Assembly (NCBI RefSeq): GCF_009389715.1
Contig: NC_052392.1
Location: forward strand, 30,268,592 to 30,332,591
Source of the DNA: Phoenix dactylifera
Taxonomy: Eukaryota > Streptophyta > Magnoliopsida > Arecales > Arecaceae
DNA: 64,000 nucleotides
Direction of reading: 5' to 3'
This document shows positions 20,848 to 41,315 of the stretch, in pieces. Position 1 is the first letter of the stretch, and each line of letters begins with the position of its first letter. The notes under the pieces are model-generated. The model saw only the letters and a list, made by a program, of their open reading frames with translations, searched no databases and was not told the DNA's origin. The translations under genes were made by a program, and so were the position numbers.

Positions 20848-21217
<370 letters not shown>

Positions 21218-21675: not shown

Positions 21676-22287
21676 ATGGGGAGCTCGGGGAAGTTGATGA
21701 ACCAGATCATGGAGCTCAAATTCACGTCAAAGAGTCTCCAGCGGCAGGCGCGCAAGTGCGAGAAGGAAGAGAAGGCGGAGAAGCTTAAAGTGAAGAAGGC
21801 GATCGAGAAGGGCAACATGGACGGCGCCCGCATCTACGCCGAGAACTCCATCCGCAAGCGCAACGAGCAGATGAACTACCTCCGCCTCGCCTCCCGTCTC
21901 GACGCCGTCGTCGCCCGACTCGACACACAGGCCAAGATGCAGACCATCGGCAAGTCCATGGCCTCCATCGTCAAGGCGCTCGACTCCTCGCTCGCCACCG
22001 GCAACCTCCAGAAGATGTCCGAGACCATGGACCAGTTCGAGCGCCAGTTCGTCAACATGGAGGTCCAGGCCGAGTTCATGGAGGGCTCCATGGCCGGATC
22101 CACCTCCCTCTCCACCCCCGAGGGCGAGGTCAACAGCCTCATGCAGCAGGTCGCTGACGACTACGGCCTCGAAGTCTCCGTCGGCCTCCCCCAGGCCGCC
22201 GCCCACGCCATCCCTGCCAAGGAGAAGGAGAAGGTTGACGAGGACGACCTCTCCCGCCGCCTCGCCGAGCTTAAGGCCAGGGGCTAG
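21676..22287 (+). CDS. CHMP1: CHMP1 / Did2-type ESCRT-III protein
   Basis: Charged multivesicular body protein 1, an ESCRT-III accessory subunit that acts on the endosomal membrane in sorting cargo into multivesicular bodies and recruits the AAA ATPase SKD1/VPS4. The single open frame has 203 residues, the normal length. The basic N-terminal helix carries [19 protein letters not shown]; the middle helices include [18 protein letters not shown] and the CHMP1-typical [20 protein letters not shown]; the acidic C terminus ends in a MIT-interacting motif, [16 protein letters not shown] (about residues 188-203). No intron, as in many plant CHMP1 genes; maize SAL1 is the known relative controlling aleurone number. 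Codon use is very GC-rich (third positions mostly C or G), typical of commelinid monocots. A long antisense frame across the gene is a by-product of that composition. Confidence 0.96.
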
Positions 22288-23798: not shown

Positions 23799-23806
23799 GC
23801 CATTAT
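23799..23806. repeat. Target site duplication, left (Pack-type hAT)
   Basis: GCCATTAT, repeated exactly at 25024-25031 on the other side of the element. Eight bases is the hAT superfamily size. Confidence 0.9.
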
Positions 23807-25023
23807 TAGGGCTGTTAACGAGCCGAGCCGAGCCCGAGCCTCCTCGGGCTCGGCTCGGCTCGTCCCACAAAATTTTAGGCTCGGGCTCGGTACCGAGCCT
23901 TGTATCGAGCTCGGGCTCGGGCTCTGTAGGCACAACAAAGGCTTGGGCCCGGGCTCGTAAAGCCCGTTTGCCCGAACCCGAGCCGCTCGGGCCGAGCGTG
24001 AGCCCGAGCTCCGGGATGGCGACCAGGGGATGGGGATGGGCGGGCGGGGGAGAGAAGGAAAAAAAGAAAGAAATAAAGAAGAAGGGAAGAATGAAGGGAA
24101 AGAAAAAAAAAGGAGAAGTGGACTCACCTCGTCGCGTGCGGCGGCCACCGGCTTTGGCCGCGAGCACCGCCGGCACGGCGTCGGCCGCAGACACGGCCGA
24201 AGACGCCATTACATCCTAACATGGCTAGGCTGAGGGGTGCAGGAGATGGGAGAGTGCAGTGGGGCGGTGACGTCTTTTAATGGGTGTTTGATTGCTTTTT
24301 CCTGCGGCGAGTAACAGTGGGCCAGTGGCAGATATTTTGCTTGAGGTTGAGGGAAGAGGGGGGAGCGCTGGAGTTTCCCATCGCTACACCAATATCGAAG
24401 CACTGGTCCTGTACGGCAACTGGGTCACTGGGTGTGAGCTTTTAAAAGCTAGCAAGTGCGGGTGGGCCCGTTGGGGGGAGGGAAGAGGGAAAAAAAAGGC
24501 CAGGGAACGTCGTTCGATGCCTAGATCAACGCCGTGTTCGCGGCCATGTCCGCCCTCAAGTACAACGACGTTAAAGTCGTGGTCTCTGACACGGGGTGGC
24601 CGTCGACGGGGGATGCGAACGAGACAGGGGCAGGGGCGGCATGCGGCGTGTGCTGTCAGGGAACGCTGGAATGCCACGGCGGCCGCAGGCGGACTTGGAT
24701 GTCTGCCTGTTCGCCCTCTTCAACGAGGACCAGAAGCCGGAGCCCACCTCGGAGAGGAACCATGGCGGCATGTTCTCTTCTACCCGGAAAAACAAATCCA
24801 AAGCCGTGCGGAACTGGCTCGGCCTGCTCCGTGCTTGATACCAGGCAGGGAAGTCGCGAGCCCAAACAGGCTCGTGAGCTACTCGGGCTCGAGCTCGGGC
24901 TTAAACGAGCTTCATGTTAGGCTCGGGCTCGGGCTCGTTTGACTAACGGGCCGAGCTCGAGCCGAGCTTTTACCGGGCCGAGCCCGAGCCGAGCCCGAGC
25001 AGCTCGGCTCGTTAACAGGCCTA
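23807..25023. mobile_element. Non-autonomous hAT element with captured gene fragment (Pack-type)
   Basis: Left end TAGGGCTGTTAACGAGCCGA and right end (reverse complement) TAGGCCTGTTAACGAGCCGA match at 19 of 20 positions. The 1217-bp element is flanked by perfect 8-bp duplications. Subterminal regions (about 23820-24010 and 24860-25015) are dense arrays of GAGCC/GGCTC and GGGCTCGG words. No transposase frame is present. The interior is unrelated to the ends: it includes a purine-rich GGAAAA tract (about 24050-24115), a possible second captured piece (about 24130-24210) and a GH17 glucanase fragment (24513 onward). Composition and gene content suggest a gene-capturing hAT element. It must be moved in trans; the nearby autonomous hAT has different subterminal words, so it may not be the partner. 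Confidence 0.9.
24513..24805 (+). pseudogene. Captured fragment of a GH17 glucan endo-1,3-beta-glucosidase gene
   Basis: Translated pieces in different frames follow the glycoside hydrolase 17 order: FDA(stop)INAVFAAMSALKYNDV, VKVVVSDTGWPSTGDANETG, then RRVLSGNAGMPRRPQADLDV and LFALFNEDQKPEPTSERNHG, and finally VLFYPEKQ. Damage visible: an in-frame TAG at 24522-24524 where the family has Gln, a deletion between the ETGAGA and RVLSGNAG blocks, and at least two frame changes. The conserved VSETGWPS nucleophile region reads VSDTGWPS, so Glu is replaced by Asp. The upstream word CGCTACACCAATATC at 24382-24396 could be the preceding family block (RYTN) split off by a later insertion of about 115 bp. 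The fragment sits inside the hAT ends and is not expected to make an enzyme. Confidence 0.85.
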
Positions 25024-25031
25024 GCCATTAT
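25024..25031. repeat. Target site duplication, right (Pack-type hAT)
   Basis: GCCATTAT, identical to 23799-23806. Confidence 0.9.
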
Positions 25032-27370: not shown

Positions 27371-27424
27371 TAGAGATGGGCACTGGGCCGGGCCGCCCAC
27401 GGCCCGGCACGGCACGGCACGAAG

Positions 27425-27544
27425 CGGGTCGTGCCTGGCACGGCCCGCAAGCTACAGTGCCGGGCCGTGCCTGGCACGGCCCCTTTGATAGGGCCGTGCG
27501 GGGCTAGAGGGTCCTGGCCAGCGGGCCGTGCCAGGCACGGCCCG
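27425..27544. repeat. Left subterminal palindromes of the hAT element
   Basis: Three copies of a 22-bp palindrome centred on GTGCC(A/T)GGCAC, at 27425-27446 (one arm base changed), 27462-27483 (last base changed) and 27523-27544. Between and after them lie half-site words GGGCCGTGC and GGCACGGCCC. In hAT elements such repeats are bound by the transposase; binding here is inferred. Confidence 0.8.
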
Positions 27545-28022
27545 CTTCGGGCCTGGGCCGGCACGGCCCGGTCTAGGCCCGCGGGCCAAGCACGGCACGG
27601 CCCGCGGGCCAGCACGGCACGGCCCATAAGGGCCTGGGCCGGGCTGGCACGCGAGCCTGGCACGGTCCGGGCCTGGGCCCGGCTCGGCCCGATAAAAATT
27701 AATGCTTCATAAATTTTTTTAATAAATTAATAAATATTGAACACTAAGAAATCTTGATTTATGAATATAAAGCCACCTTAATGGTGGGGGGTTTGGCATA
27801 GACCCCTACCAGTTTATTAATTTAAATCAAAATGGTACATGAAGGGAGGTTTGGACCTTGGTCTGACCTCTAGAATACAATAAGAAACTAAGAAAGGGCC
27901 GAGGTTTGGACCTTGGTCTGACCTCCAGAATACAATAAAAATGTACAATTATAAAAAATTAAGAAATCTTACTAATCATCAGTGATTCAGTGAATCAGTA
28001 TTCACTCTTCAGTCTTCAGTCT

Positions 28023-30047
28023 TCAGTCTTCAGTAGTGTTTGTATCATCATCATCAGAGGATGTTGTATTATGTCCACCTTTATCTTGAAGTCTTGCCTC
28101 AGCATCCAGCCAATCCTTGAAGCAGAGAAGCATCTCCACCGTTTCGCCCGTCATCCTACTTCTCTTTTCGTCAAGAACACGCCGACCTGCACTAAAAGCG
28201 GATTCCGATGCTACCGTGGACATCGGCACAGCTAAAATATCGCGTGCAATTGCAGACATAACAGGATATTGATTTCTAACACTCTTCCACCAAGATAATA
28301 CATCTAGATTCTCTATTTGATTTTCATCATATGCAGAATGAAGATCATTTCGTAAATAAAATTCTAGTTCACTACTTAAAGATGAAGAAAATGAAGAGGA
28401 ACTTGAAGCATGTGTGTGTCTTCTCTGTGCAATGAATGAAAAAATAGATGACGAACGAGAATTACTAGAAGGAGGAATAGAGGTTTGTATTTGTGTTCTA
28501 GATCCACGAATTTTTTCATCATATATAGCATAAATATCATAAAGAAGTTGTCTTACCTCATCTTTAGCAGATTCAGCATCTTGATTCATATTTTCAGAGT
28601 ATGCATCAAGTAAAATTAGCACGCCATTTAATTTAACTCTAGGATCAAATACAGCAGCTAAGTTATGCATAGGACATATCCTGTCCCAATACTCATTCCA
28701 TTTAGATTCCATTAATTCAATAATAGGCATTAAAACATCATCATATCTATGTTCTGCAAATTTTTGACTAATTATATATGCTTGTTGTAAAAATGAACAT
28801 GAAGTAGGGTAATAAATACCAGAAAGAACATTGGTAGCATTATAAAAACTAAGCAAAAAATCTTCCAAAATTTTTCCTTTATTCCAATCAGTTTCAGTCA
28901 ATGTAAATCCTAATCCACGATCATTAATATATGCACTTAATAAATTTTTATATGGGTATGCATCATGTATCATGCTATATGTGGAGTTCCAACGAGTAAT
29001 TACATCAAGTTTAAATTTTTTAAAACGTTTACCATGATTTATGCATAATTCCTTAAATTCTTGAAGTCTTGATCTAGAAGCATGAATAAAAGAAACTGCA
29101 TTTCTAATTTTTGAAATCACATCTTGAATCATGCCCATGCCAGCTTGAACAGAAAGATTTAAGATATGACATGCACATCTAATATGCAGTAAATTTCCAT
29201 CTAATATGGGATGCAATGAGTCTTTTAATAATACAACAGCAGAATTATTATTAGATGCATTATCAAAAGTAATAGACATAATTTTTTCATTAATATTATA
29301 TGAACATGCAGTTTGATAAATTATATTTGAAATTTGTTGCCCAGAATGTGGAAAATCAAAAGCACGAAAAGCAAGAATACGTTTATTTAATTGCCAATCA
29401 TTATCAATATAATGAGCAGTAATGGCAATAAAACAATTACTACCTACAGATGCTGACCAAATATCAGAAGTTAATGAAATTTTTACATTTAAAGTAGAAA
29501 GTGTTTCAATTAAATTTTGTTTCATTGCTAAAAAATTGGTCATAGCTACTCTTCTAAATGTACGCCTACTAGTTCTTTTGTAAGCAGGTTGTAGGTTTAA
29601 TTGAACATATTCTTCAAAATTAAAAGATTCACATAAACTAAAAGGTAATTCATCCTTAACTATCCATTTTACAAGTGCTTTTCTTTGATTTTCATGATTA
29701 TATGCAAAATTACCTACAAGTAATCCCCCTTGTATATTAAGGCTACTTTGAGTTTGAGCATGAGAATCATGCATCCTATGACTCTCTTGATGTCTTTTTA
29801 AATGCCCTGTTCCCCCACTACTACTACAACTATAAAGTTTGGCACATTTTTTACATCTAGCTTTCCAGACTCCCTCAACCATAACTCTATCAAATTCATT
29901 CCATACAGTACTAGTCCTCTTACGAGAAGAGGTTTGACCTTCACTCGGTTCACCAGTTCTAGAGGAACTAGGAACAGGGGGTTGGGGATTAGTTTCTTCT
30001 CCCTCAGAAACAGGAATGCCAAACTGACTTTCCTCAAAAGATGACAT
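28023..30047 (-). CDS. hAT transposase, BED zinc finger type, intact
   Basis: Nuclear DNA transposase that cuts at hAT ends and reinserts with 8-bp duplications. The 674-codon frame is uninterrupted, near the usual length for plant RICESLEEPER-type proteins. Order of parts: acidic and Pro/Ser-rich tail (1-45); BED finger about 47-90 with Cys65, Cys68, His82 and His86; RNase H-like catalytic core with the first Asp at about 195 (LTSDIWSAS) and the second at about 262 (TFDNASNNN); CxxC-like RCACHILNLS near 290-299; TRWNSTY near 351-357; the inserted helical region; and the C-terminal hAT dimerisation domain about 580-645, with LDVLSWWKS, VPMSTVASESAFSAG and EKRSRM. The third acidic residue is expected in the C-terminal block (Glu615 of SESAFS is a candidate). 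A polar acidic tail (SSDDDDTNTTED) ends the protein. Start chosen as the first ATG after the leader. No stop or frameshift was seen. Confidence 0.95.
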   Translation of the reverse strand: MSSFEESQFGIPVSEGEETNPQPPVPSSSRTGEPSEGQTSSRKRTSTVWNEFDRVMVEGVWKARCKKCAKLYSCSSSGGTGHLKRHQESHRMHDSHAQTQSSLNIQGGLLVGNFAYNHENQRKALVKWIVKDELPFSLCESFNFEEYVQLNLQPAYKRTSRRTFRRVAMTNFLAMKQNLIETLSTLNVKISLTSDIWSASVGSNCFIAITAHYIDNDWQLNKRILAFRAFDFPHSGQQISNIIYQTACSYNINEKIMSITFDNASNNNSAVVLLKDSLHPILDGNLLHIRCACHILNLSVQAGMGMIQDVISKIRNAVSFIHASRSRLQEFKELCINHGKRFKKFKLDVITRWNSTYSMIHDAYPYKNLLSAYINDRGLGFTLTETDWNKGKILEDFLLSFYNATNVLSGIYYPTSCSFLQQAYIISQKFAEHRYDDVLMPIIELMESKWNEYWDRICPMHNLAAVFDPRVKLNGVLILLDAYSENMNQDAESAKDEVRQLLYDIYAIYDEKIRGSRTQIQTSIPPSSNSRSSSIFSFIAQRRHTHASSSSSFSSSLSSELEFYLRNDLHSAYDENQIENLDVLSWWKSVRNQYPVMSAIARDILAVPMSTVASESAFSAGRRVLDEKRSRMTGETVEMLLCFKDWLDAEARLQDKGGHNTTSSDDDDTNTTED

Positions 30048-30314
30048 ATCTATGATTAATTCAAAAAATAAAAACTAACCGCAAGGAGGAATTGAGTAGA
30101 GGGTCGGAGGGCAGAGGCAGAGCCGAGATTCCGAGCTTCCTCTTGTGCTCTCAACAGAAGCGACCTTCTCTTCTCAACAGGAACCTCCTCTTGTGTAGCA
30201 CTTGAACAAACTAAAAATTAAATTGCTAGAAGAGCACTTTAGAAGAGAGAAATAATAGCAGTAGAGAAGGAGAGAATGAGAGATTTGGTGTGGTGAGAAT
30301 GGGGGAGGAATGGG

Positions 30315-30322
30315 CTATTTAT
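30315..30322 (-). promoter_or_regulatory. TATA box of the hAT transposase gene
   Basis: TATAAATA on the minus strand, about 270 bp upstream of the transposase ATG and inside the element, just interior to the right subterminal array. Spacing would put the transcript start near 30285. Confidence 0.6.
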
Positions 30323-30450
30323 AGAAGCCTAAATTTTTTTCCCCAAAATACCCCTCAATTTAGCCGTTATTGGACTGTTGGGAGGGGTAAAAGCGTCTTT
30401 TTCCCGAAAATAGCCGTTGGAAACGGCTATTTTCCTCCCCCTCTCCAGAC

Positions 30451-30663
30451 GGGCCGTGCCAGGCACGGCCCGTCTGGAGCCGTTACGGGCCGTGCCGGCA
30501 CGGCCCGTTCGGAGCCGTTGCGGGCCGCCCGTTTGCGCCCGTTACGGGCCGTGCCTGGCACGGCCCGTGTCGTGCCGTGCCCGGCCCGGCCCACCAATAG
30601 AGGGGCCTGGGGCCGGGCCGGGCTGCAGTTCCGTGCTGGACGGGCCGTGCCAGGCACGGCCCG
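30451..30663. repeat. Right subterminal palindromes of the hAT element
   Basis: Four copies of the same palindrome as on the left: 30451-30472, 30487-30507 (central base missing, 21 bp), 30546-30567 and 30642-30663. Spacings are about 36, 59 and 96 bp between starts. Confidence 0.85.
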
Positions 30664-30727
30664 TTTAGTCTTTGGGCCCGGGGGGCCTGGGCCGGGCCGG
30701 CCCGGCACGGCCCGTTGCCCAACTCTA

Positions 30728-38294: not shown

Positions 38295-41200
38295 ATGACG
38301 ATCACTCCGTCGGTTCGGATCTCCGATGGAAAGCTGGTCGTCAGGGGCCACGCGATCCTCTCCGGCGTTCCCGACGCCGTCATCTCCAGCCCCGCAGCCA
38401 GCTCCGGCCCTGTCGACGGCGTCTTCCTCGGCGCCCAGTTCGCCGAGCCCAGCTGCCGCCATGTCCTCCCTCTTGGAACCCTAAGGTAAACAATGGGGAG
38501 ATTTTTCATCTGTCCTTTTTCAATGTTTTTCTCTTCAAATTTGTTAATTTTCTCTGATTCCGATCGATTCACCAAGGTTACAATCGAACTCAATTACGTT
38601 AAAAGATAAAAAAAGAAGAAGAAGAAGACATTTTCTCTTGCTTTCCGAGTGTTTTCCTCTTCGTTTTGGTTTAACATTCTTGGATTGTGATCAAATTCCA
38701 GGGATGTTCGATTCATGGCGAGCTTTAGGTTCAAGCTATGGTGGATGGCTCAAACAATGGGAGACCGAGGGAGGGACATCCCCCATGAGACCCAATTCCT
38801 CCTCGTTGAATCCATGGATGGCGAGGAGACCGTGTACACTGTCCTCCTTCCCCTCATCGAGGGCCCCTTCCGTGCCTGCCTCCAAGGCAATCCCCGTGAC
38901 GAACTGGAACTCTGCCTAGAGAGCGGCGACGCCGATACCCGGTCAGCCTCCTTCTCCCACTCCCTCTTCGTCGGCAGCGCCGTCGCCGACCCCTTCGCTG
39001 CCATCTCCGGCGCCGTTGCTGCCGTCAAGCACCACCTCAAGACCTTCCTCCAGCGGCCTGAGAAGAAGCTCCCGGGCATTGTGGACTACTTTGGGTGGTG
39101 TACATGGGATGCATTCTACCAGGAGGTCACCCAGGAGGGTGTCGAGGCTGGCCTTCGCAGCCTCACTGCCGGTGGCGCTCCCCCGAAGTTCGTCATCATC
39201 GACGACGGATGGCAGTCGGTCGGCTCCGACCAGCCTCAAGGCGAATACGAGAAGCCTAATTCTTTACTTCGGCTGACCGGCATTAAGGCGAACAACAAGT
39301 TCCAGAGCAAGGAGGATCCAGCAGCAGGGATCAACACAATTGTTCAGACGGCGAAGAGCAAGTATGGGCTCAAGTATGTCTATGTGTGGCACGCCATTAC
39401 TGGGTACTGGGGAGGGGTGCAGCCCGGGGTGGAAGCGATGGAGGAGTATGGATCAAAGATGCAGTATCCAAAGATACCACCTGGAGTGGTGGAGAATGAG
39501 CCCTGGATGATGACGGATGCGATCACCTTGCAGGGGCTTGGGCTCGTGAACCCGAGGAGAGTGTACAAGTTCTACAATGAGCTGCACAGCTACTTGGCTG
39601 CAGATGGGGTGGATGGTGTAAAGGTGGATGTGCAATGCATCCTGGAGACCCTTGGAGCCGGCCTCGGTGGGAGAGTGGAGCTCACACGGCAGTACCACCG
39701 GGCCCTCGATGCATCGGTTGCCAAGAATTTCCCTGATAATGGCTGCATTGCCTGCATGAGTCATAATACTGATGCTCTCTACTGGTTAGTGTTCATAGCC
39801 ATTTCTGAATTCTGTGTTTCTTTTTGAAGTCGGATTGCTTGTCGACAGGTTTTTCATTGAAGTTGGCTGTGGATGTGCTTTTAATCTCTTCGATGGTGAA
39901 AATGCAGCTCGAAGCAGACAGCAGTGGTGAGGGCATCGGATGATTTCTACCCAAGGGACCCTGTTTCGCATACCATCCACATTGCCTCGGTGGCTTATAA
40001 CAGTGTCTTCCTCGGTGAGTTCATGCTCCCTGATTGGGACATGTTCCATTCTCTCCACCCTGCGGCTGAATACCATGCCTCTGCTCGGGCGATCAGTGGT
40101 GGACCGATCTATGTCAGGTGGGAAATGGAACTTGATCTTTTAGGTTTATAAGCTTTGAGCTGAATCTTGAACATAAAGAAATTTCGTATTCGAGCTAAAA
40201 ATCTTCTTGTTTATTTAATATGTTCTCATTTCGGATCATACAGTGATGCTCCTGGAAAGCACAACTTTGAGTTGTTGAGGAAATTGGTCTTGCCCGATGG
40301 CTCCATTCTTCGTGCTCGGCTCCCTGGTCGTCCTACACGAGATTGCCTCTTCTCAGACCCAGCTCGTGATGGTGTTAGGTATTCAGATTTCTCTTCCTAT
40401 AAACTTGGTTTCAATTACCAAACTTTTTATCTTAGCTTTCCTTGTAGAATTGGCCTTTTTCTTATTTGATCTTGGTTGAATGTGTTTCTGAATTGAAATT
40501 ATTTGCTTTATTTGTGTAGCTTGCTCAAGATATGGAACATGAACAAATTCAATGGTGTCCTTGGCGTGTACAACTGCCAAGGTGCAGCATGGAGCTCGAC
40601 AGAGAAGAAGAACATGTTCCACCATACCAGATCAGATGCTTTATCTTGTGCAGCGAAAGGAAGCGACGTTCACCTAATCGCAGAGGCTGCAACTGACCAT
40701 GATTGGCATGGTGATTGTGTTGTCTACCGCCACAGAGATGGCCAATTGGTGGTCCTTCCTCACAATGCAGCAATGCCCGTCTCCTTGAAGGTTTTAGAAC
40801 ATGATATCTTCACCATCTCCCCCATTAAGGTTCGTCCAATTTTCCCTCCCATTTGTAGTTGTCCTTCTGAAAATGGAGTTAGTCTATCATATTTTTTAGG
40901 ACAAAACTCTTCTCACTCCTCTACTGTAATGCAGGATTTGGCGCCTGGATTTAGATTTGCACCACTGGGCCTGGTGGACATGTTCAATGCTGGAGGAGCA
41001 GTTGATGGCCTCACATACCACATTTTGGGTGGTGCCAACATTTTAGAGCTGGATTCTAGTTTTGCAGGGGAGATGAATGGAGCCTTTATGCGCTCGCTGG
41101 AGAAAAGAAGTGGCGATGCTGTGGCCTTGATTTGCATGGAAGTCAAGGGATGTGGGAGATTAGGAACTTACAGTTCAGTTAAGCCGAGGAGATGTATGTT

Positions 41201-41315
41201 GGGCTCAGCTGATGCTGAGTTCTCATATGAGCCTTCATCTGGGTTTCTTACTCTTCAATTAGAAAACATGCCAGAGGGCAACAAGAGAGTTCACAAAGTA
41301 GCGATTGAATTGTAG
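38295..41315 (+). CDS. RFS6: GH36 galactosyltransferase / alkaline alpha-galactosidase-like, RFS6/DIN10 group
   Basis: Raffinose-synthase-family enzyme (probable galactinol-sucrose galactosyltransferase, or alkaline alpha-galactosidase of the seed imbibition type) acting on raffinose-type galactosides in the cytosol. Six exons join in frame: 38295-38485, 38702-39784, 39908-40117, 40244-40378, 40520-40829, 40935-41315, giving 769 residues. It opens [20 protein letters not shown], as in Arabidopsis DIN10. Motifs: [10 protein letters not shown] near residue 72, [11 protein letters not shown] near 194, FVIIDDGWQ near 227, KVDVQ with the likely nucleophile Asp about 373, and [10 protein letters not shown] with the likely acid/base Asp near 436. 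It lacks the ~80-residue insertion that I associate with true raffinose synthases, favouring the SIP-type. First exons are GC-rich. Dark, sugar or ABA response is known for relatives and not shown here. Substrate cannot be decided from sequence. Confidence 0.93.

Follow-up and report, generated by a model that had tools for sequence, protein, structure and literature searches.

The window analysed here is a stretch of 64,000 nucleotides on contig C1 of the Phoenix dactylifera genome (NC_052392.1; C1:30268592-30332591). At window positions 23807-25023 it contains a 1,217-bp transposable element with a piece of a GH17 beta-1,3-glucanase gene inside. This element is very probably a so-called Pack-hAT: a hAT element, itself non-autonomous, into which part of a host GH17 gene has been copied. 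The reading is based on hAT-type ends and target-site duplications (TSDs), a donor gene, same-end relatives without GH17, 12 separate insertions and the presence of other host-gene cargo in the same family. The genome searched comprised 773,078,369 bases in 2,391 contigs.

Anatomy of the element

The element is bounded exactly by the TSD GCCATTAT. An earlier reading of the window, made from the sequence only, had placed a hAT element at these coordinates with a perfect TSD and ends matching at 19 of 20 bases. The coordinates proved exact, both TSD copies agree at 8/8 positions, and the terminal inverted repeats (TIRs) match at 21/22, which bears out the earlier count of 19 of 20. The parts of the element are listed below in window coordinates (L numbers denote loci).

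23799..23806, unstranded: left TSD GCCATTAT, 8/8 against the right copy
23807..23828, plus strand: left TIR of the TAGGG type, 21/22 against the right arm; TAGGG in 14/14 GH17-bearing rows
23807..24207, plus strand: left half of the element, nearest to an L026-type subfamily by its match to L026, with G+C-rich subterminal GGCTCG/CGAGCC repeats
24209..24499, plus strand: right-type element sequence common to the GH17-free L015, L016, L017 and L027 (sequence comparison)
24501..24788, plus strand: broken GH17 beta-1,3-glucanase fragment, read as captured (Pfam PF00332; donor L048; boundaries by alignment)
24789..25023, plus strand: right arm with subterminal repeats and a GGCCTA-type end (sequence comparison)
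25002..25023, minus strand: right TIR, 21/22 against the left arm
25024..25031, unstranded: right TSD GCCATTAT, 8/8 against the left copy

The 8-bp TSD, the short TIRs and the GGCTCG/CGAGCC repeats, which are numerous in both arms, agree with the hAT superfamily, of which subterminal repeats are typical. When the window was scanned for exact 8-bp TSDs together with TIRs of at least 11/12 at a spacing of 150-6000 bp, 40 matches were obtained, 38 of them in a TA microsatellite (about 20.9-21.1 kb) and the other two being the GH17 element and one other hAT. The same scan of 40 first-order Markov shuffles gave 0 matches, and a chance origin of the TIRs and TSD was therefore rejected. The long TA/ATAC microsatellite, at window 20868-21110, imitates TSD/TIR pairs in naive scans. 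A Pfam scan of the eight open reading frames of the element detected GH17 in one and nothing in the other seven, with no transposase family among them. The element is non-autonomous, a transposase not being found between its ends.

On the minus strand, a G+C-rich stretch at window 24127-24212 reads MASSAVSAADAVP, up to a GTGAGT-like splice donor, and is partly shared with L026. No Pfam match was obtained for this stretch, which could be a further captured exon.

The GH17 fragment and its donor gene

Two frames of the element match GH17 PF00332 above the cut-off of 28.2 bits, one at 24525-24644 (29.1 bits) and the other at 24593-24835 (31.1 bits). A chance similarity was rejected because both pieces exceed this cut-off. 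Compared with the donor gene, the stretch carries a stop and frame-shifting indels (deletions of 17 bp and 28 bp and an insertion of 8 bp), consistent with its earlier description as a clear but broken glucanase stretch. An open frame for the catalytic domain is not present: only profile positions 205-241 and 258-301 of 306 are covered, in two frames and with a stop. The boundaries of the GH17 block were taken from alignments of the donor, its paralog and the element copies with the GH17-free L016 and L017. At the right edge, the donor sequence ending ...CTACCCGGA is followed by element sequence. At the same place the GH17-free L016 has an A-run that leads via GTT into GAACCAAATCC, and L027 is alike. 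At the left edge, about 9 bp of donor similarity and the 17-bp deletion come before the continuous homology.

The GH17 Pfam family has 118 matches in the genome, from which 64 loci (L029-L092) were compared by BLAST; the matches outside this set include second exons and copies of equal or near-equal score on other contigs. The best non-element match is L048 (C1:20637597-20638559), which lies on the contig of the window, 9.65 Mb away, and has a 462-codon open frame spanning the whole GH17 profile. Its identity is 92.9% over 297 bp to L007, 87.9% to L009 and 80.3% to L001 (deletions included). The next paralog, L045 on C7, reaches 86.1%, 81.0% and 74.6% to the same three copies. Among the 64 loci, no other non-element alignment of at least 200 bp exceeded 70%, and shorter ones reached up to 88% over 51 bp. 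The GH17 comparison gave 21 paralog-only sites versus 1 donor-only site, so the fragment derives from the C1 gene lineage after its split from the C7 gene. As in a Pack-hAT, host coding DNA lies between the ends and its donor elsewhere in the genome, and the earlier proposal that the GH17 stretch was captured has thus gained a source.

Contigs C200 and C794 hold clusters of GH17 genes and fragments with near-equal scores, perhaps as alternative haplotypes.

GH17-bearing copies and GH17-free relatives

When the DNA of the window element was used as query and the best 40 of 906 candidates were scored, at least 115 matching pieces were found in the genome. A search for the exact end pattern gave 381 occurrences (191 + 190), against 0 for the reversed control. 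The loci that carry GH17 number 14 and represent 12 distinct target sites; their identities to L001 are as follows.

L001: the window element, reference for the identities
L002: 97%
C26 copy (L008 and L013): 93-95%, interrupted by a nested insertion of about 12 kb
L003: 89%
L004: 87%
L005-L007: 86%, one TSD on three contigs, taken as one site
L014: 84-88%
L009-L012: 72-76%
L091: first met in the GH17 Pfam search and later recognised as an element copy

The TSD is 8/8 at 10 of the 12 sites, 7/8 at L012 and 6/8 at L091, where for these counts the end of L014 was shifted by eye and the C26 copy was read from both flanks. A tree of 13 GH17-bearing rows, from which L006 was omitted because it nearly duplicates L007, resolved two groups (8 and 5 rows) with support 100/100. 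The cargo has moved along with its element, as GH17 is found at 12 distinct target sites. The capture described for the window element therefore stands, but it is not private to that copy, being common to at least 12 insertions.

Four same-end elements (L015, L016, L017 and L027) are without the GH17 segment. L016 and L027 pass through the A-run and resume exactly at the right edge of GH17; L015 and L017 are missing slightly more than the GH17 block. No GH17 stretch was found in the same-end L018-L026, L028, L093, L094 and L095 when these were compared with L001.

Mixed ends of the GH17 elements

The two halves of the window element match different GH17-free elements. L026 matches at 86% over element positions 1-203 and 80% over 247-401, and among the six GH17-free elements compared it is the only one that matches 247-401. 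L094 matches this left half partly, to position 292, and C26:1321965-1322326 shows 73% over element positions 41-401. Element positions 403-691 and 984-1217 match L015, L016, L017 and L027. In L001, L007 and L009, identity over the 5' 190 bp is 88-90% with L026 and 75-85% with about 11 other same-end elements; over the 3' 190 bp it is 76-80% with L026 and 87-92% with L016 and L017.

The same division is seen in the terminal sequences. Ends of the TAGGGCTG/CAGCCCTA type are found in L026, L024, L093 and L095, and ends of the TAGGCCTG/CAGGCCTA type in L015-L023, L025, L028 and L096, and the right end of L027, read in the flank, is CGGCCTA. The GH17 elements have a left TAGGG in 14/14 rows and a right GGCCTA in 12/14, the exceptions at the right end being L011 (AAGGCTA) and L014 (AGACATA, end shifted). 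These results suggest that the GH17 elements are fusions in which the left half is of L026 type and the right half of L016/L017 type. With such mixed TAGGG/GGCCTA ends, the single TIR mismatch is plausibly a mark of the fusion.

Other cargo in same-end elements

The sequence-only reading had proposed a search for elements with the same ends and different contents, and such elements were found in L093 and L095. They are listed here with two further same-end elements.

L093: C3:4617411-4619767, 2,357 bp, TSD CTCCTTTC 8/8, RPN3 cargo
L095: C4:15928352-15929718, 1,367 bp, TSD CCTGGAAT 8/8, leucine-rich-repeat (LRR) receptor fragment
L094: same-end element, 1,074 bp, TSD 8/8, contents other than GH17
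L096: same-end element, 1,105 bp, TSD 6/8, no family match for its contents

In L093, the reverse strand carries two exons from RPN3/PSMD3, which encodes a proteasome subunit. They match contiguous positions of the PF25573 profile, 187-226 (E 1.4e-13) and 227-306 (E 8.4e-36), and PDB matches agree. The exons are about 100 bp apart and the RPN3 intron seems to have been kept, which argues for DNA as the template of this capture. When the best 40 of 806 candidates were scored, L093 positions 832-1602 were 99% identical to C18:5310386-5311156, where no other element sequence was listed, and weaker matches were obtained on C100 (88%) and C5 (78%). The C18 locus is likely the source of the RPN3 cargo, a candidate by coordinates. 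L024 retains L093 positions 1-1005 (98%) and 1869-2357 (95%) and looks like a deletion derivative in which the RPN3 stretch survives only in its first part. At C1:17227325-17230115 the flanking same-end sequence is present without the RPN3 stretch, judged by coordinates among the matches listed.

A further part of L093, at about 223-833, is cargo with a short reverse-strand frame ending FRKALPVAIVLGVAGLAGLYFYLNNAY. Matches to it are listed at C14:6376678-6377287 and in further members of the family, and the peptide of this frame had no Pfam match.

In L095, the arms flanking the LRR-receptor fragment are 97% and 93% identical to the arms of L024, and the LRR source, C430:113896-114542 (L097), is identical to the cargo at 640/647 bp. 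The right junction shows an 8-bp microhomology, CGAAATCG, that is common to the donor, the element and the L024/L093 arm, and the left junction a 3-bp microhomology, TGG. The cargo is open over about 211 codons in a 293-codon frame. A bolder and rather doubtful extension of these results is that the family acts as a repeated gene shuffler, maybe still active, which has taken up pieces of at least three unrelated genes (GH17, RPN3 and LRR receptor, the last two about 99% identical to their source) and fuses subfamily halves, with LRR cargo from which chimeric transcripts, or small RNAs directed at the donor genes, may arise.

Candidate transposase source

A genome search with PF05699 (Dimer_Tnp_hAT), in which the best 150 of 1,658 candidates were scored, placed such domains by coordinates at seven or more places no further than about 3 kb from family ends (C1:30695686, C485, C796, C12, C6, C278 and C10). 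The C1 domain lies in a 609-codon frame 0.4 Mb from the window element, inside the 3,568-bp span C1:30693401-30696968. This span is delimited by a 3' end of the family (30693401) and by the end of a 5' TIR (30696968). A second hAT is present in the window itself, at 27371-30727 (TSD TCTTTAAA; TIR TAGAGATGGGCA, 11/12), with an open transposase frame of 674 amino acids on the minus strand that contains Dimer_Tnp_hAT and hAT-like RNase-H domains. It was rejected as the likely mover of the GH17 element, as its TIR and subterminal repeats differ when judged by eye.

Capture and decay of the fragment

The GH17 fragment was probably captured once. Four of the six informative sites unite both element subfamilies against the donor and paralog, and the other groupings are supported by 1 and 1. 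Both subfamilies share the GH17 junctions, and the 17-bp deletion is common to the rows covering it.

Comparison of the copies suggests that the fragment decays near-neutrally. In eight copies, 9-14 synonymous changes were observed versus 7.4-12.0 expected from the mutation spectrum, which is C>T/G>A-rich, and strong purifying selection was rejected since these counts are close to the neutral expectation. A 28-bp frameshift is found in L001-L004, the C26 copy and L014. L009-L012 and L091 have a separate frameshift of 10 bp, and the GH17 stretch of L005-L007 contains a stop. The subfamily-specific frameshifts and this stop fit decay, and a coding function of the fragment is probably absent. The ratio of nonsynonymous to synonymous substitution (dN/dS) is 0.05 between donor and paralog. 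Against the donor, L091 gave 1.24, which is attributed to a misaligned deletion.

Discussion

The best supported explanation is template switching during repair, followed by trans-mobilisation. During repair of a break or gap inside a resident family member, short homology would have let DNA synthesis jump to the GH17 gene as template and then return, so that part of an exon was left at an internal A-rich site. The capturing element would itself already have been fused from its L026-type left and L016/L017-type right halves, so that fusion is placed before capture, and the filled element would then have been mobilised in trans by a presumed transposase source.

Several observations weigh against this account. 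The left edge of the GH17 block is not sharp, and the junction microhomology at its right edge is at most 2 bp. The GH17 segment lies within one exon, so this capture alone cannot tell a DNA from an RNA template. The candidate autonomous elements are placed by coordinates only. L094, in which no GH17 was seen, has the same mixed ends; these were therefore rejected as a feature peculiar to the GH17 elements, and together with the partial left half of L094 they imply that the fusion need not be tied to GH17 capture. To these are added an identity between the subfamilies and signs of constraint that bear on the alternatives. GH17 identity between the subfamilies (82-86%, L001 versus L009-L012) is under that of the arms (88-94%), which would fit two independent captures, one per subfamily, if the shared changes were coincidental. 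However, with shared junctions, the shared 17-bp deletion and informative sites at 4 versus 1 and 1, two captures are very unlikely. Of the 12 copies for which dN/dS against the donor was computed, 11 have values of 0.25-0.54, and synonymous counts are slightly over the neutral expectation in 8/8 related copies. Either result alone could suggest weak constraint, for instance on a small-RNA source or on an exon that regulates or adds to a glucanase gene. Selection of this kind is nevertheless very unlikely: with a spectrum rich in C>T/G>A the synonymous excess is small, the copies share history, and frameshifts and stops arose separately in the subfamilies.

The sequence-only reading had itself raised the alternative that the segment is ancestral rather than captured, in which case the GH17-free elements would be internal deletions. 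Occurrence of GH17 across two subfamilies, which is hence not recent, and the somewhat larger gap of L015 and L017 agree with this alternative. In contrast, L016 and L027 continue across the A-run and pick up again precisely at the right edge of GH17, the other same-end elements compared with L001 have no GH17 stretch, and the segment groups with the C1 gene and not with its paralog, so that it entered after those genes split. An ancestral origin is therefore highly improbable. It is barely credible that a GH17 pseudogene or fragment pre-existed at the locus and acquired hAT ends around it by chance, as TIRs and a TSD enclose the fragment, which is present at 12 distinct target sites.

For cut-and-paste elements, the evidence for capture is often a single end product. 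In this genome, one family combines source loci with relatives that have no cargo and copies that have it, together with a candidate source of transposase and a junction showing 8-bp microhomology. With such resources the order of fusion, capture, spread and decay becomes datable and the template-switch model testable. The GH17, RPN3 and LRR fragments are also an annotation hazard, as they can be mistaken for gene copies.

Pack-MULEs and Helitrons likewise duplicate pieces of host genes in mobile elements, but they belong to other superfamilies. MULE TSDs are usually about 9 bp and Helitrons are not known to have any, whereas the TSDs here are 8 bp. Gene capture by plant hAT elements is already in print, for maize Ds (PMC3260210) and for Pack-hAT (PMC8903248). 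With the animal cases (PMC8277862) included, capture by hAT elements is better described in print than the sequence-only reading had allowed. The Pack-hAT elements described in maize and rice (Gisby and Catoni 2022, PMC8903248) are similarly non-autonomous, with 8-bp TSDs and host coding DNA between their ends, and the tandem insertion and re-mobilisation proposed there for joining plant elements resemble the fusion suggested here. In contrast to the elements as described there, the present ones are from another plant, have other ends and other cargo, and form one family for which source loci, relatives without cargo and at least three cargoes are documented. For maize, 2 Ds2 and 9 Ds-l4 elements with gene fragments are described in PMC3260210; these are also hAT, with introns kept and donor genes named, but they have the 11-bp Ac/Ds TIR, while the cargo here is GH17 over 12 insertions. 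Animal Pack-TIRs, 208 of them in hAT, are described in PMC8277862 with short microhomology at the breakpoints, for which template switching was proposed. They resemble the present family in hAT capture and short junction homology; compared with them as described there, the cargo here is multicopy. What is added here is a well-resolved, multicopy, multi-cargo case of hAT capture, for which no function is indicated.

Other genes in the window

Open frames at window 38715-41315 resemble, by eye, a raffinose/stachyose synthase gene with several exons. A single-exon frame of 203 amino acids at window 21676-22287 resembles, also by eye, a CHMP1-type ESCRT protein.
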